Shown piece by piece: positions 21,811 to 26,211 of a stretch of 38,768 bases of DNA (its first letter is position 1; each line of letters starts with the position of its first letter). Below the pieces are notes generated by a model, which was given only the letters and a program-made list of their open reading frames with translations, searched no databases and was not told where the DNA came from. A program made the translations under genes and the position numbers. The stretch covers positions 1 to 38,768 of the forward strand of contig VFZL01000039.1 of NCBI GenBank assembly GCA_016871175.1, written 5' to 3'. This stretch comes from Acidimicrobiia bacterium. GTDB lineage: Bacteria; Acidobacteriota; Vicinamibacteria; Vicinamibacterales; CAVVIG01.

Positions 21811-22860
21811 TCACGTCTGCTGCACGAGTGCGCGCTTGAGGAAGCGCGTGAGGATCCAGCCGTCGACGAACTTGAACGGTGTCTTTCCGGTGCTGTAGTG
21901 CCCGCACGGCAGGATCGCCAGCTCGTGAGGGATGTCCTGGCGGCGAAACTCTCGCACCAGGTCCTCGGACAGGTCGACCGGAAACGTCAGGTCGTAGCGC
22001 GCGTACACCAGCAGCGTCTGTCGATCGCGGACGCGATCCAGGAACCACTGCGGGCTGATCGGTCGCCAGAACTGGCGCAGCTGCTCCAGTTCGATGTGGC
22101 CATCCAGCCCTGCTCGCACGTGCCTCGTCGAGAGGCCGCGCCAGACGACATCCGCAAAGTACGGAGAGATGTGGTTGAGTGCCTGTGCGCGCACGAGAGG
22201 CTCGTGGGCGGTGGTGAGGAGCGAGAGGCACGATCCGAGGCTGCTCCCAAGGATGCCAATGCGCTCGAACCCTTCGCGGTGCAGCCACGCAATCGCGCGC
22301 CTCGCGTCGAGCACCGCCTGTCGGCACACTTGCACGGTCCGCGCCACGTTCGAGCTGACGATGTAATCGGCACGATGGAGCTCTGGCGGCATGCGCCGAT
22401 CGTGATAGGGCAGGCTCAGGCGCAACGCGGTCACGCCGTTCATTGCGAGCAGGCGGCACAGGCCGACGTGTCCGCCTTCGTCCGAGTTCCACTGCGGCAG
22501 CACAAGGACCGCCGCCCGGGGATGGTGTGTTGTCGCGCGTCGCGCGGGCACGAGCCGGCACCACACGACGTTGTTCTCGGGATGTGGGGTCGTGAGCGCG
22601 CTCGGGAAGGTCAGGCGGCGGTCACCGTCGGCTTCAGCCGTGCCGAGGACGTAGCGGTCCGTCGGCTCCGGCGTGAAGAAGGCATCCGTGTCGTCCATGA
22701 CCCGGTCGACCCAAGTTCTGAGCGCCTCGGGGGGGCATGCCGTGTGGTGGGCGACCCCGTTTGGGAGCCAGTCCAGGCCCCATTCGAACGGTCGCACGAC
22801 GCGGTCTGTCGTCGCAGCCGCGAGATGACGCTCCCAGGCGTAGAAGAACGGCGCGATCAT
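21811..22860 (-). CDS. Alpha/beta hydrolase, possibly ABHD18-like
   Basis: In this 349-residue protein the central strand and nucleophile elbow read RIGILGSSLGSCLS, with Ser in GxSxG. The probable acid is in YARYDLTFPVD and the His in PCGHYSTGKTPF. Before it lie AVLVLPQWNSDEGGHVGLCR and LRLSLPYHDRRMPPEL. This arrangement resembles the ABHD18/DUF2048 group, but the match is from memory. The substrate is unknown. ATG 22860 is used; an in-frame GTG at 22866 is equally possible, and neither has a strong ribosome site. Sequence upstream in this frame is low quality. Confidence 0.7.
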   Translation of the reverse strand: MIAPFFYAWERHLAAATTDRVVRPFEWGLDWLPNGVAHHTACPPEALRTWVDRVMDDTDAFFTPEPTDRYVLGTAEADGDRRLTFPSALTTPHPENNVVWCRLVPARRATTHHPRAAVLVLPQWNSDEGGHVGLCRLLAMNGVTALRLSLPYHDRRMPPELHRADYIVSSNVARTVQVCRQAVLDARRAIAWLHREGFERIGILGSSLGSCLSLLTTAHEPLVRAQALNHISPYFADVVWRGLSTRHVRAGLDGHIELEQLRQFWRPISPQWFLDRVRDRQTLLVYARYDLTFPVDLSEDLVREFRRQDIPHELAILPCGHYSTGKTPFKFVDGWILTRFLKRALVQQT

Positions 22861-23190
22861 GAACACGACGGACCGGCTAAGGCGTCCGTTCCACGTCCGG
22901 CTCCACGATTGAGCCGTGCTTGAACGCGACCCGGACGCTCGCCTGCCGTGAACGGCTCGGCGGTGAAATCCAACTGTCGTCCGAGGCCGAGCGTCTCGTG
23001 ATCGTCCGTAGAGCCCGACATGAACAGCAGGCGCGTATAGGGTCGCGCGGTCGGCCATCGACGCGCCAGGCGTCTACGCAGAATCGGCACCCGCCAGCTC
23101 GCGGGCGATGAGCGGCAAGTACACACGTGCTGCCTCGCTCGGTTGGGGAAACACGGCCCAGTATTGTAAGCCGAGCTCGGGCGAGCGCCG
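22861..23190 (-). pseudogene. Degraded coding stretch upstream of the hydrolase
   Basis: Protein-like pieces occur in successive frames on the minus strand. ELGLQYWAVFPQPSEAARVY continues to LIARELAG at about 23095. Another frame reads VPILRRRLARRWPTARPYTR, then DFTAEPFTAGE at about 22955. A third reads VRVAFKHGSIVEPDVERTP at about 22880. Each is flanked by non-coding-like sequence, which suggests a gene broken by frameshifts. The second frame ends with a TGA that overlaps the hydrolase ATG, so a short real gene there cannot be excluded. Family not recognised. Confidence 0.3.
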
Positions 23191-23246
23191 TCGGGCGGGC
23201 GCCCGCCGATGCTGTGGTGATGGGTCGCCGCACAGTCGGAGCGTCG

Positions 23247-23255
23247 TGCTATACT
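23247..23255 (+). promoter_or_regulatory. Extended -10 promoter of the asd leader
   Basis: TGCTATACT is an extended -10 element (TGn followed by TATACT), nine bases before the ATG of the leader frame at 23265. No -35 is recognisable, as is common for extended -10 promoters. Confidence 0.5.
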
Positions 23256-23264
23256 CGCTGCTCC

Positions 23265-23345
23265 ATGCAGCCGGCACAGTTCACGCGAAAGCGGACCACT
23301 CGAAAGCGGGTCACCCGTGTCGGAGGCATGCTGCTCGGACGCTAA
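23265..23345 (+). CDS. Putative leader peptide of the asd-dap operon
   Basis: A 26-residue open frame begins MQPAQFTRKRTTRKRVTRVG and ends with TAA at 23343-23345. Four Thr, two Lys and six Arg codons are present, most within residues 7-18. Aspartate semialdehyde is the precursor of Thr, Lys and Met, so a Thr/Lys-sensing leader ahead of asd is expected of a classical attenuator. The stop lies 31 bases before an intrinsic terminator. No ribosome site is visible, so translation would be leaderless. Whether the peptide is made is untested; a chance basic open frame is the alternative. Confidence 0.5.
   Translation: MQPAQFTRKRTTRKRVTRVGGMLLGR
23314..23323 (+). promoter_or_regulatory. Putative antiterminator segment
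   Basis: CCCGTGTCGG (23314-23323), inside the leader frame just after the Thr/Lys/Arg run, can pair with CCGACCCGGG (23377-23386). That gives nine base pairs and one mismatch. The second segment is the 5' arm of the terminator, so the two structures exclude each other. Confidence 0.5.
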
Positions 23346-23375
23346 GAGTTCACCTGAAATTTCGAGCGCTCACCT

Positions 23376-23409
23376 GCCGACCCGGGCCTTCCGCGTCGGC
23401 TTTTTTTTT
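23376..23409 (+). terminator. Intrinsic terminator ahead of asd (attenuator)
   Basis: GCCGAC (23376-23381) pairs with GTCGGC (23395-23400). CGG (23383-23385) pairs with CCG (23391-23393) above a single C-C mismatch, with a 5-base loop. Nine T follow at 23401-23409. It is the only textbook rho-independent terminator in the window. It lies between a promoter and the asd start rather than after a gene. Confidence 0.85.
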
Positions 23410-23509
23410 GACTGCCGCTCCCCAAGCGCAGCCGGAACGGCCCGTGAGCACTCACAGCGGTGTCACGGCAAGAGGGTCGTGGGATTGGGGCCGCACGACA
23501 GAGGACAAC

Positions 23510-24547
23510 ATGATTCCCGTGGGTATCTTGGGCGCGACCGGCATGGTCGGCCAACAGTTCATCGCCTGTCTCACCAACCATCCCTGGTTCACCGTCGACT
23601 GGCTTGGGGCAAGCGAGCGCTCCCAAGGCAAAGCGTTTCGCGATGCCGCGGCGTGGCGCTTGGCCTCGCCGCTTCCAGACAGAATCGCGAAGAAGGTCGT
23701 CGAGCAGGCTGCACCGGGCAACGCCCCGAAACTGGTGTTCTCCGGTTTGGATTCGTCGGTTGCGGGTGAGATCGAAGCCGCCTTCGCCGCTGCGGGTCAC
23801 ATCGTGGTGAGTAACTCGCGCAACTATCGCATGGAACAGACGGTGCCCCTGCTCATCCCCGAGGTGAATGCCGACCACCTGGAGCTGCTTCGATGCCAGA
23901 GCGTGGCCACCGGGTGGAAGGGGGCCGTCGTCACCAATCCGAACTGCTCGACCGTCGTGTTGGCCATGGCGCTTGCGCCCCTTCGCCAGTTCGGCCTCAA
24001 GACGGGGCTCGTGACCACGCTCCAGGCGATCTCGGGTGCGGGATACCCCGGCGTGCCGTCGTGGGACATCCTGGGGAACATCATTCCCTTCATCGGCGGC
24101 GAGGAAGACAAAGTCGAGAGCGAGCCGCGAAAGATCCTTGGCACCCTGAAGGGCGATCGCATCGACTATCACCCGGTGAAGCTCAGCGCGACGACCACGC
24201 GTGTGCCGGTGCAGAACGGTCACTCGATGTCCGTGTCGGTCGGGTTGGAGCAGCGGCCGACGCCTGAGGCGATCATCGATGCGTGGAATTCGTTCCGTGG
24301 TCGCCCGCAAGAACTCGAGCTGCCGACCGCTCCACCACAGCCGATCGTCTACCGTGCCGAGCAGAACCGTCCCCAGCCCATCCTCGACGTCAACAGCGAC
24401 AACGGCATGACCGTGACGGTTGGTCGCCTGCGCACATGCGCCCTCTTCGACTACAAGTTCGTCGCGCTCGGCCACAACACCATCCGGGGCGCTGCGGGTG
24501 CGGCCGTTCTCAACGCGGAGCTGATGCACAAACACGGAATTCTGTGA
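23510..24547 (+). CDS. asd: Aspartate-semialdehyde dehydrogenase, archaeal/fungal type
   Basis: The 345-residue enzyme reduces aspartyl phosphate to aspartate semialdehyde, the branch point to Lys, Thr and Met. The NADP-binding loop is GILGATGMVGQQ at the N-terminus and the active-site Cys is in NPNCSTVVLAMALAP. The GATGMVGQ loop and NPNCST form place it in the archaeal/fungal-like class rather than the E. coli class. GAGGA lies four bases before ATG 23510. The same frame is open upstream to 23108 but that part covers the leader and terminator. It heads the asd-dapB-dapA-M20-MutS-like operon. Confidence 0.93.
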   Translation: MIPVGILGATGMVGQQFIACLTNHPWFTVDWLGASERSQGKAFRDAAAWRLASPLPDRIAKKVVEQAAPGNAPKLVFSGLDSSVAGEIEAAFAAAGHIVVSNSRNYRMEQTVPLLIPEVNADHLELLRCQSVATGWKGAVVTNPNCSTVVLAMALAPLRQFGLKTGLVTTLQAISGAGYPGVPSWDILGNIIPFIGGEEDKVESEPRKILGTLKGDRIDYHPVKLSATTTRVPVQNGHSMSVSVGLEQRPTPEAIIDAWNSFRGRPQELELPTAPPQPIVYRAEQNRPQPILDVNSDNGMTVTVGRLRTCALFDYKFVALGHNTIRGAAGAAVLNAELMHKHGIL

Positions 24548-24562
24548 GAATAGAGTTCCCTG

Positions 24563-25306
24563 ATGCGTCTCCTTCTCGTGGGCTACGGCAAGATGGGTCG
24601 ACTCGTCGGCGAGCTCGCCCGTGAATACGAGGGTGAGGTTGTGGGCATCGTCGACCCGCAGTCGTCGTCCGCGACCGGCACGGCTGACGACGACCGGTGG
24701 AAGGGCAACGTCGATGTGGCGATCGACTTTTCGCAAGGCGACGCGGTGCGGTCGAATGTGCCGGCCCTCGCCGGGCGAGGTATCAACATCGTGTTGGGTA
24801 CGACGGGCTGGCAGCAGCACGAGGCTGCCTTGCGTGCCGCCGTCGCCGAGGCTGGCGTGGGCGTGGTGGCGGCGCCGAACTTTTCGACCGGCGTCGTGCT
24901 GTTCGAAGCGATCGTGCGCTACGCCGCGCAGCGATTCGCCGATCAGCCCGAGTTCAGTGCCTGGCTGCACGAGGCGCATCACGGCGCGAAGAAGGACGCA
25001 CCGTCTGGAACGGCACTGTTGCTGAAGCGTGCGATCGAGACCGGCGGTTTCAACCGGCACGTCGACGTTTCGGTCACCCGGGCAGGGTTCATTCCAGGTA
25101 CGCATACGATCGGGTTCGACGGACCGTCGGATGCCATCACGCTGACGCACGCCGCGCGCGACCGCGGTGCCTTCGCGCGGGGCGCGTTGGTGGCTGCGCG
25201 CTGGGTTCAGGGAAAGCGCGGATGGTTCGACATGCAGGACGTGCTCTCGCTGCGAGACGAGGCTGGTAGGCCTGTAGGGGGCCATGCAGGTAAGGGGGAC
25301 TCATGA
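24563..25306 (+). CDS. dapB: 4-hydroxy-tetrahydrodipicolinate reductase
   Basis: The 247-residue enzyme carries out the second committed step of lysine and diaminopimelate synthesis. The dinucleotide-binding loop is LLVGYGKMGRLVGE. VLGTTGW and the catalytic region EAHHGAKKDAPSGTA with its His pair and Lys follow. The C-terminal FARGALVAARWVQGKRGWFDMQD closes the fold. The length fits short DapB forms. It starts 15 bases after asd, and its stop overlaps the dapA start. Confidence 0.92.
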   Translation: MRLLLVGYGKMGRLVGELAREYEGEVVGIVDPQSSSATGTADDDRWKGNVDVAIDFSQGDAVRSNVPALAGRGINIVLGTTGWQQHEAALRAAVAEAGVGVVAAPNFSTGVVLFEAIVRYAAQRFADQPEFSAWLHEAHHGAKKDAPSGTALLLKRAIETGGFNRHVDVSVTRAGFIPGTHTIGFDGPSDAITLTHAARDRGAFARGALVAARWVQGKRGWFDMQDVLSLRDEAGRPVGGHAGKGDS

Positions 25307-26211
25307 GAACACCATGGACCGGCGTGGGCACGGCGCTCGTAACCCCCTTCACCAAGTCGGGTGAGCTCGACGAGCCGGCCGTCCGTCGTCTTGGCCGGCG
25401 ACAGATCGACGCTGGGATTCACTTCCTCGTGCCGTGTGGGACGACCGGAGAAAACCCGACGTTGTCGCTCGCCGAGCGCGTCCGCATCGTCGAGATCCTG
25501 GTCGACGAGGCCGGTGGCAAGGCGCCCATCCTCGCCGGCGCAGGTGGATACGACACGCGGGAAATCATTCACCTCGCAGCTGAGATGCTGCGCGCCGGAG
25601 CGTCGGGTCTACTGTCGGTGACGCCGTACTACAACAAACCGACGCAGGAAGGGCTCTACCAGCACTTCCAGGCGATTGCGGAGAGCACCCCTCTTCCAAT
25701 CATCTTGTACAACGTCCCGAGCCGTACAGGTATCAACCTCGAGCCCGTGACGGTCGCTCGCTTGGCCGCGGTGCCGAACATCGTCGGCATCAAGGAAGCG
25801 TCCGGCAACATCTCGCAGATGTGCGACCTCTGTCACATGGTTCCGTCCGAGTTCATCGTGCTGTCCGGCGACGATGCGGTGACGTTGCCGTTGATGGCGG
25901 TCGGCGGGCGCGGTGTAATTTCCGTGGCGTCGAACGAGATGCCCGCCGAGATGGCTCAGATGGTCGAAGCAGCAGAGCGAGGCGACTTCGCCGCCGCACG
26001 TCGTGTGCACGAACGCATCCTGCCGTTGATGCAGATCAACTTCGTGGAATCCAATCCAGGACCCGTGAAGTGCGCGATGGCTGCGATGGGCCTGATCGAG
26101 GAACAGTACCGGTTACCCATGGTCCCGCCTCGGCCCGAATCGAAGGCGCGGATCAACCGCGTGCTGCACGCGCTCGAGCTGCTGCGAGCGACAGCGCCCC
26201 ACGCGTCGTGA
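25303..26211 (+). CDS. dapA: 4-hydroxy-tetrahydrodipicolinate synthase
   Basis: The 302-residue TIM-barrel enzyme condenses pyruvate with aspartate semialdehyde. Family motifs are GTTGENPTLS, VTPYYNKPTQEGLYQHF with the catalytic Tyr, YNVPSRTG and GIKEASGN with the Schiff-base Lys. Its ATG overlaps the dapB stop, and its stop overlaps the GTG of the M20 gene, so dapB, dapA and the amidohydrolase are translationally linked. In this order dapB precedes the synthase that makes its substrate. Confidence 0.94.
   Translation: MRTPWTGVGTALVTPFTKSGELDEPAVRRLGRRQIDAGIHFLVPCGTTGENPTLSLAERVRIVEILVDEAGGKAPILAGAGGYDTREIIHLAAEMLRAGASGLLSVTPYYNKPTQEGLYQHFQAIAESTPLPIILYNVPSRTGINLEPVTVARLAAVPNIVGIKEASGNISQMCDLCHMVPSEFIVLSGDDAVTLPLMAVGGRGVISVASNEMPAEMAQMVEAAERGDFAAARRVHERILPLMQINFVESNPGPVKCAMAAMGLIEEQYRLPMVPPRPESKARINRVLHALELLRATAPHAS

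Follow-up and report, generated by a model that had tools for sequence, protein, structure and literature searches.

How is transcription of the asd-dapB-dapA operon controlled in this bacterium? The 38,768-nucleotide stretch of DNA analysed here (the window) is part of a 4.44 Mb draft genome (G000), whose closest named relative by its Asd protein is an Acidobacteria MAG (CADEDC010000044.1; 87% Asd identity). In it, a short open reading frame (ORF) and a terminator-like hairpin precede asd, a branch-point gene of the aspartate family. This arrangement raises the question of whether ORF and hairpin form an attenuator and, if so, which amino acid its codons would sense.

The asd leader of the window

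The elements listed in a preliminary description of this locus, namely an extended -10 sequence, a 26-codon frame, a terminator ending in nine T and the gene order asd-dapB-dapA, were all recovered (Table 1). The terminator arms are GCCGACCCGG (23376-23385) and CCGCGTCGGC (23391-23400), the T run occupies positions 23401-23409, and a 100-base spacer separates it from asd. The pairing that had been noticed between CCCGTGTCGG (23314-23323) and CCGACCCGGG (23377-23386) was confirmed as well, with nine of ten positions paired and one mismatch. The upstream neighbour is an ORF on the minus strand (21811-23058); it gave no Pfam match, and its start was recognised by eye in several relatives. No plus-strand gene whose end the hairpin could mark was recognised upstream. 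An N-terminal extension of asd was considered, ORF 23108-24547 being open, but was rejected since the leader is in another frame.

Table 1. Features of the asd leader region and the operon behind it, in window positions
Feature	Position	Strand	Basis
Extended -10 promoter element, TGCTATACT	23247..23255	+	sequence
Probable transcription start	about 23262-23265	+	inferred from -10 position
Leader ORF, MQPAQFTRKRTTRKRVTRVGGMLLGR; 26 codons, ATG 23265 to TAA 23345, probably leaderless	23265..23345	+	ORF list, relatives
Lys codon AAG, 18 codons ahead of stop; proposed main stall site	23289..23291	+	codon counts, stall models
Lys codon AAG, 13 codons ahead of stop; just beyond the modelled stall window	23304..23306	+	codon counts, stall map
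Two Thr codons, ACC ACT, within the modelled stall window	23295..23300	+	codon counts, stall map
Third Thr codon, ACG	23283-23285	+	codon counts, stall map
Putative antiterminator strand (segment 2), CCCGTGTCGG, within the ORF	23314..23323	+	duplex and swap tests
Nested hairpin, 5' strand GCTCG, inside the antiterminator	23333..23337	+	sequence, fold, alignment by eye
Nested hairpin, 3' strand CGAGC	23363..23367	+	sequence, fold, alignment by eye
Terminator 5' arm (segment 3), partner of segment 2 and of the 3' arm	23376..23386	+	alignment, duplex tests
Terminator 3' arm, CCGCGTCGGC, with nine T (segment 4)	23391..23409	+	sequence, alignment
asd, aspartate-semialdehyde dehydrogenase (TIGR00978)	23510..24547	+	NCBIfam
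dapB (TIGR00036)	24563..25306	+	NCBIfam
dapA (TIGR00674)	25303..26211	+	NCBIfam

A single sequence proves little here, and the case for more than chance rests on the comparison with relatives. A strict consensus scan of the window missed both the promoter and the terminator, probably because it required both promoter hexamers and a stem without interruptions whose loop does not exceed eight bases. The leader by itself folds with a z-score of only -1.97. Arg codons are the most numerous in it, as had been pointed out (6 of 25 codons, p = 0.01), followed by Thr (4 of 25, p = 0.04) and Lys (2 of 25, p = 0.07, not significant); the duplex between the ORF and the terminator arm is not exceptional relative to shuffled sequences (p = 0.12). 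A scan of the window with the 4227 models of Rfam release 15 yielded no match at gathering score. The best of three sub-threshold matches, to a Burkholderia sRNA (E 0.028; 20 bits, where the gathering score is 43), was taken as chance, and assignment to a known RNA family was rejected.

Conservation of the leader ahead of asd

Asd was sought in 60 relatives, with matches in 53 (E 0.001), and in 162 genomes of the order Vicinamibacterales (Acidobacteriota), with matches in 109 (1e-60). Matches without the 5' end of asd were excluded, as was the one in genome G066, which lies 77 bases from a contig end; one locus with asd cut at the contig edge (L051) and a duplicate (L049) were left unused. In the order, 106 asd upstream regions were examined. 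Families are designated f1, f2 and so on, labels of this analysis, f1 being the window's family.

Leaders were called automatically from a -10 box followed by an ATG or GTG ORF and then by a terminator, nothing else being required. The procedure called leaders in 62 of the 106 regions, and the 21 f1 leaders among them all have Lys codons. One call, unlike the others and with a poor -10 box (L062), was dropped, the start of another (L031) was shifted upstream, and four leaders with a longer 5' part (L005, L010, L011 and L050) were added by hand, bringing the total to 65 of 106 regions with a leader ORF and a terminator before asd. The arrangement is found in 25 of 26 f1 regions (21 automatic, four by hand), in 13 of 21 in f2, 8 of 8 in f10, 6 of 7 in f4, 4 of 8 in f15, 3 of 3 in f5 and 2 of 3 in f6, and in the one region each of f3, f7, f9 and f11. 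No leader was detected before asd in f8 (0/20), f14 (0/5) or f12 (0/1); regions scored as lacking one include L078, which spans no more than 79 bases, and L043, which contains a run of N. An aspartokinase gene precedes asd in f8 and f14: it was confirmed with Pfam in the three loci scanned (L125-L127), and a C-terminal aspartokinase motif, chosen by us, was located directly upstream in 17 of the 25 regions.

A covariance model of the f1 leader matched 24 of the 60 genomes, once each and always just upstream of asd. All matches fell within f1 (24 of its 27 genomes), the search having used strict filters that miss weaker relatives. The preliminary description had made its reading depend on finding the leader frame and the pairings in related genomes; both are kept, as judged from these matches and from covariation of the antiterminator between families (see below). 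The family alignment comprised 23 of the 25 f1 leaders, L024 and L025 being omitted. One f1 locus, L018 (genome G003), retains a TATACT box without a leader ORF or terminator before asd and seems to have lost the attenuator.

The inspection was extended to 40 regions upstream of asd in 37 families outside the order. A terminator-like hairpin lies within 200 bases in four of them (L245, L248, L250 and L263), and one, L245 (family f44), has a similar leader, rich in Lys and Thr (MSAACARKRKTAKKTTPQGGRGSVL). Among the matches listed, an Acidobacteria MAG (L189) shows a Thr-rich leader-like frame and a terminator before asd (MPRGTMGAVAKRTRTTRPITGARTFTGAGGG). Other biosynthetic genes of f1 served as controls, 30 loci being fetched for each. 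No terminator was found ahead of trpE in the 22 full-length loci; terminators precede leuA-like genes in 4 of 27 loci, all of which lack a suitably spaced short ORF, and hom in 4 of 26.

Promoter and start of the leader

A -10 box matching TATACT in at least five of six positions precedes 52 of the 65 leaders. Within this group, 27 boxes carry the TGn extension and 17 a -35 element with at least five of six matches, while nine have neither. The spacing between the -10 box and the start codon is 9 nucleotides in 21 leaders, 10 in 11, 11 in five and 39-51 in four. A transcript usually starts at a distance of 6-9 bases from the -10 element, so most leaders would have almost no 5' untranslated RNA, and the leader ORF is probably leaderless. 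The window's genome contains the combination TATACT-N9-ATG at four sites, and those other than the leader start ORFs of 433-501 codons.

Alternative pairings and ribosome position

The covariation that had been anticipated was found in part. Within f1 no compensatory change was seen in either helix, both being nearly invariant. Between the 11 families compared, the 3' part of an ORF paired more stably with its own terminator arm than with arms swapped in from other families. The centred difference was 3.2 kcal/mol (p = 5e-5, the limit of resolution with 20,000 permutations), and the result was unchanged when f1 and f2 were removed. A control with the initial 36 bases of each ORF showed no effect (p = 0.19). 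These figures are from a repeat of the swap test with double centring, adopted because arm lengths differ. The comparison points to an antiterminator that is exclusive with the terminator and covaries between families. In single sequences, duplex tests reached p 0.05 in 35 of the 65 leaders; in f2 they did so in 1 of 13, leaving the antiterminator of that family unsupported.

The effect of ribosome position was modelled at equilibrium, the ribosome being assumed to cover the RNA up to 12 bases past the start of the A-site codon, counted from its first base. With the ribosome stalled at the first Lys codon, thermodynamics favoured the antiterminator in 15 of 25 f1 leaders, against 0.6 expected from shuffled leaders. 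The terminator was still favoured in nine (L005, L010, L016, L017, L021, L023, L024, L025 and L042), and one (L009) was undecided. Stalling at the last (second) Lys codon gave the antiterminator in 1 of 25, with the terminator predicted otherwise, and a ribosome at the stop codon gave the terminator in all 25. When stalls at every codon were mapped, the f1 stall window closed before the second Lys codon, with a mean of 0.44 at 14 codons ahead of the stop and 0.10 at 13. In the window's leader the stall region takes in the Lys codon at 23289-23291 and three Thr codons. Without a ribosome, 19 f1 leaders were predicted to form the terminator and six the antiterminator; the window's leader is among the six (antiterminator 0.79), so that basal termination there would need translation. 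For all 65 leaders, stalling at the first control codon gave the antiterminator in 26, against 2.5 expected (in f2, 3 of 13 against 1.1).

It had been suggested that a ribosome reaching the stop codon would cover the antiterminator segment. This does not hold under the footprint assumed here, which extends over about 23325-23356 and misses 23314-23323; such a ribosome would instead cover 23333-23337, sitting between segments 2 and 3. The stretch 23333-23337 is the 5' strand of the nested hairpin, whose alignment in relatives was judged by eye, without a count of pairs.

These results bear on the view that the hairpin is a constitutive weak terminator, or belongs to a small RNA gene, without amino-acid control. 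That the terminator arm has a co-evolving second partner within the ORF, and that stall-dependent switching in the models is far above that of shuffled leaders, makes this very unlikely.

Control codons and the genes behind asd

Codon enrichment was expressed relative to eight genes of the window. In f1 leaders Lys is enriched 5.2-fold, Arg 2.4-fold and Thr 1.6-fold. Most members of the family have AAG both 18 and 13 codons ahead of the stop, and AAG is kept while adjacent codons vary, a preceding CGA being replaced, for example, by CCA, CCT, CAT, CAC or CTG. Judged by these patterns, Lys is the leading candidate for the signal in the window's family. The earlier proposal of Thr/Lys sensing stands for Lys, the best kept and most enriched of these residues in f1; neither Thr nor Arg leads there, and Thr may be a second signal beside Lys.

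In other families the balance differs. Thr is enriched about 4-fold in f4, f6, f7 and f9 (for example L028, MTRTIITITVTTRKR) and is the most enriched of Lys, Arg and Thr in f4, f6 and f9. In f10 Lys is enriched 8-fold. Leaders of f5 have no Lys and a 9.1-fold enrichment of Met (L047, AAAMRMMAMRMTGIGGG), and the f11 leader (L104) lacks Lys and has two Met. All 61 leaders outside f5 and f11 contain Lys, against none of the four within, each of which has at least two internal Met codons; f5 and f11 being two families, the 65 leaders are not 65 independent cases. At equilibrium the four Met leaders favour the terminator. While the 3' arm has yet to be transcribed, segment 3 is predicted to be paired upstream with a mean probability of 0.86 when the ribosome is at the first Met (0.52 in shuffled leaders) and of 0.45 when it is at the last (0.57 in shuffled leaders).

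Operon content was read in one to three members of each family, and in none for f3. Behind asd lie dapB and dapA in f1 (the window) and f7, and aspartokinase, dapB and dapA in the 11 loci read in f2, f4, f6, f10 and f15 (L110, L113-L116, L118-L120 and L122-L124; blastp for dapB and dapA, Pfam for aspartokinase). In f5, asd is followed by an aspartokinase fragment, homoserine dehydrogenase, metY and a metX-like gene (L111), by aspartokinase, homoserine dehydrogenase and metY (L112), or by aspartokinase, homoserine dehydrogenase and metX (L128); in f11 by aspartokinase and metY (L117); and in f9 by aspartokinase up to the contig end (L129). The fragment in L111 (genome G030), before homoserine dehydrogenase, is N-terminal only, with AA_kinase at positions 2-88. 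The leader codons thus appear to match the product of the operon, Lys going with dap genes and Met with met genes.

The same attenuator could respond to Thr, or to Thr and Lys together, for which the leader of the E. coli thr operon is the model. The window's stall region contains three Thr codons, the four families named above show an enrichment of Thr of about 4-fold, and asd supplies Thr as well as Lys; in two f1 leaders, L016 and L017, one of the two control sites has changed from Lys to Thr, both being end products of the pathway. We nevertheless regard this version as rather unlikely given the 1.6-fold enrichment of Thr against 5.2-fold for Lys in f1, where AAG is the best kept codon, and given that asd-dapB-dapA is the Lys branch.

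Another version of the attenuator would have the pause set by slow Arg codons (CGA) or by the basic RKR sequence, and report on Arg or on general translation speed. Arg is the commonest residue in the leaders, and CGA is over-used in them, making up 98 of their 312 Arg codons and 42 of the 268 in the eight window genes. However, in several members Pro, His, Leu or Ala takes the place of Arg before the second Lys codon while AAG stays, Arg is not a product of the asd pathway, and it is near background in the leaders of f5 (1.3-fold) and f11 (0.9-fold), which renders this version improbable. The string AAGCGG (in CGA AAG CGG) is conserved at the nucleotide level more tightly than coding demands. 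Slow codons, or else pairing with CCGC in a short 1:2 hairpin, possibly account for this and for the over-use of CGA.

The conservation of AAGCGG might also be expected of a metabolite-binding riboswitch or a protein-bound RNA in which the frame is accidental. Yet no Rfam family reaches its gathering score in the window, and the frames, of 22-40 codons including the stop, all carry in-frame Lys codons outside f5 and f11. Moreover, codon content shifts with the operon, as a ligand-binding fold would not do, and we consider such an RNA extremely unlikely.

Proposed mechanism

Taken together, the data make it very likely that a ribosome-mediated transcription attenuator precedes asd-dapB-dapA, as originally put forward, probably with Lys as its main signal. 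Comparison of genomes establishes the ORF, its Lys codons, the terminator, a predicted antiterminator pairing that co-evolves with it and codons matched to the operon; the events in the cell, from the start of transcription through translation and stalling to termination or its relief, we infer from these. RNA polymerase would start at about the leader ATG, and a ribosome would load on the leaderless, or nearly leaderless, AUG and follow. When charged tRNA-Lys is scarce, the ribosome would wait at the Lys codons, mainly at 23289-23291, and leave segment 2 free. The hairpin 23333-23337/23363-23367 would form, then segments 2 and 3 (23376-23386) would pair, and the terminator would be blocked, allowing transcription of asd-dapB-dapA. 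When Lys is plentiful, the ribosome would reach the stop codon (23343-23345), cover 23333-23337 and part segments 2 and 3. Segment 3, once freed, would pair with 23391-23400, and transcription would end at the T run. The Thr codons in the stall window may contribute a Thr signal.

Relation to known systems

The classical attenuators of enterobacteria (trp, his, thr, leu, ilv and phe; model in passages of PMC1183508) share with the present leader a short ORF containing codons for the product, four segments (1-4) that pair either 2:3 or 3:4, a T-run terminator and, in the mechanism proposed here, read-through upon stalling. What differs here is the phylum, the gene (asd), Lys as control codon, the variation of the codons with the operon, and the probably leaderless ORF. 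The nearest precedent found for a Thr/Lys leader is SEP5 of Sinorhizobium meliloti (PMC10117765). This small ORF, which is translated and contains six Thr and three Lys codons, lies in the 5'-UTR of what its authors name an aspartate dehydrogenase gene, and they suggest that it may encode a leader peptide. SEP5 belongs to another phylum and is dominated by Thr, and the relevant passages of PMC10117765 describe neither a terminator nor an antiterminator for it.

Leader peptides whose ORF begins at the first bases of the transcript include S. meliloti rnTrpL (PMC10117765) and, in passages of PMC8079986, leuL, trpL, ilvL and metL of Streptomyces lividans. Of these, metL contains Met and Thr codons; it differs in that the gene behind it encodes a Met importer and that no terminator is clear in the account given there. 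In the same passages none of the five is named before asd or dap genes. Lys and Met biosynthesis is usually cited as being under riboswitch or other control. The L-box and S-box are ligand-binding RNAs. They likewise act as cis RNA controls of Lys and Met pathway genes (the lysine riboswitch or L-box and the S-box in passages of PMC1262725), and differ from the asd leader, which has no Rfam match at gathering score.

According to passages of a 2010 survey (PMC2965389), leader-peptide systems were known only in Proteobacteria and Actinobacteria, apart from the survey's own Firmicutes case, and acidobacterial attenuators were almost without assigned function. In the open-access literature, where mention inside full texts is possible, we found no acidobacterial, Lys-codon, Met-codon or asd leader attenuator. 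We lean towards the view that a single asd-leader attenuator has been re-aimed across the order by codon change, with its antiterminator co-evolving, and that it provides, within the literature searched, the first biosynthetic attenuators with Lys or Met control codons and the first leader-peptide system of Acidobacteriota. The pattern of re-aiming, part of the same view, would be Lys where dap genes stand directly behind asd, a Thr/Lys mix with aspartokinase, and Met with homoserine dehydrogenase and met genes. Mechanisms of this kind are long known, and what appears to be new is the phylum, the gene, the Lys and Met control codons and the tracking of the operon by the codons. Kept across much of the order with codons that vary with the operon, the leader amounts to a natural codon-swap series, in which the way attenuators gain or change amino-acid specificity can be tested directly.

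A second attenuator-like leader ahead of a homoserine dehydrogenase gene

A second attenuator-like arrangement was noticed upstream of a homoserine dehydrogenase gene. Frames rich in Leu, Ile and Thr occur there in four loci: L324, L325 (in the window's own genome, contig C15), L326 (APLPTTTLLLTIGSLPLPLRTHVTG) and L330; none of this type was seen in L327-L329. In these leaders the sequence GGTGATG near the stop can pair with CATCACC of a T-tailed hairpin, and they gave no Rfam match. Between the hairpin and the homoserine dehydrogenase gene, L324 and L325 contain a further small ORF with the conserved C-terminus EAGYGYGV, which can be recognised by eye in L326 as well.
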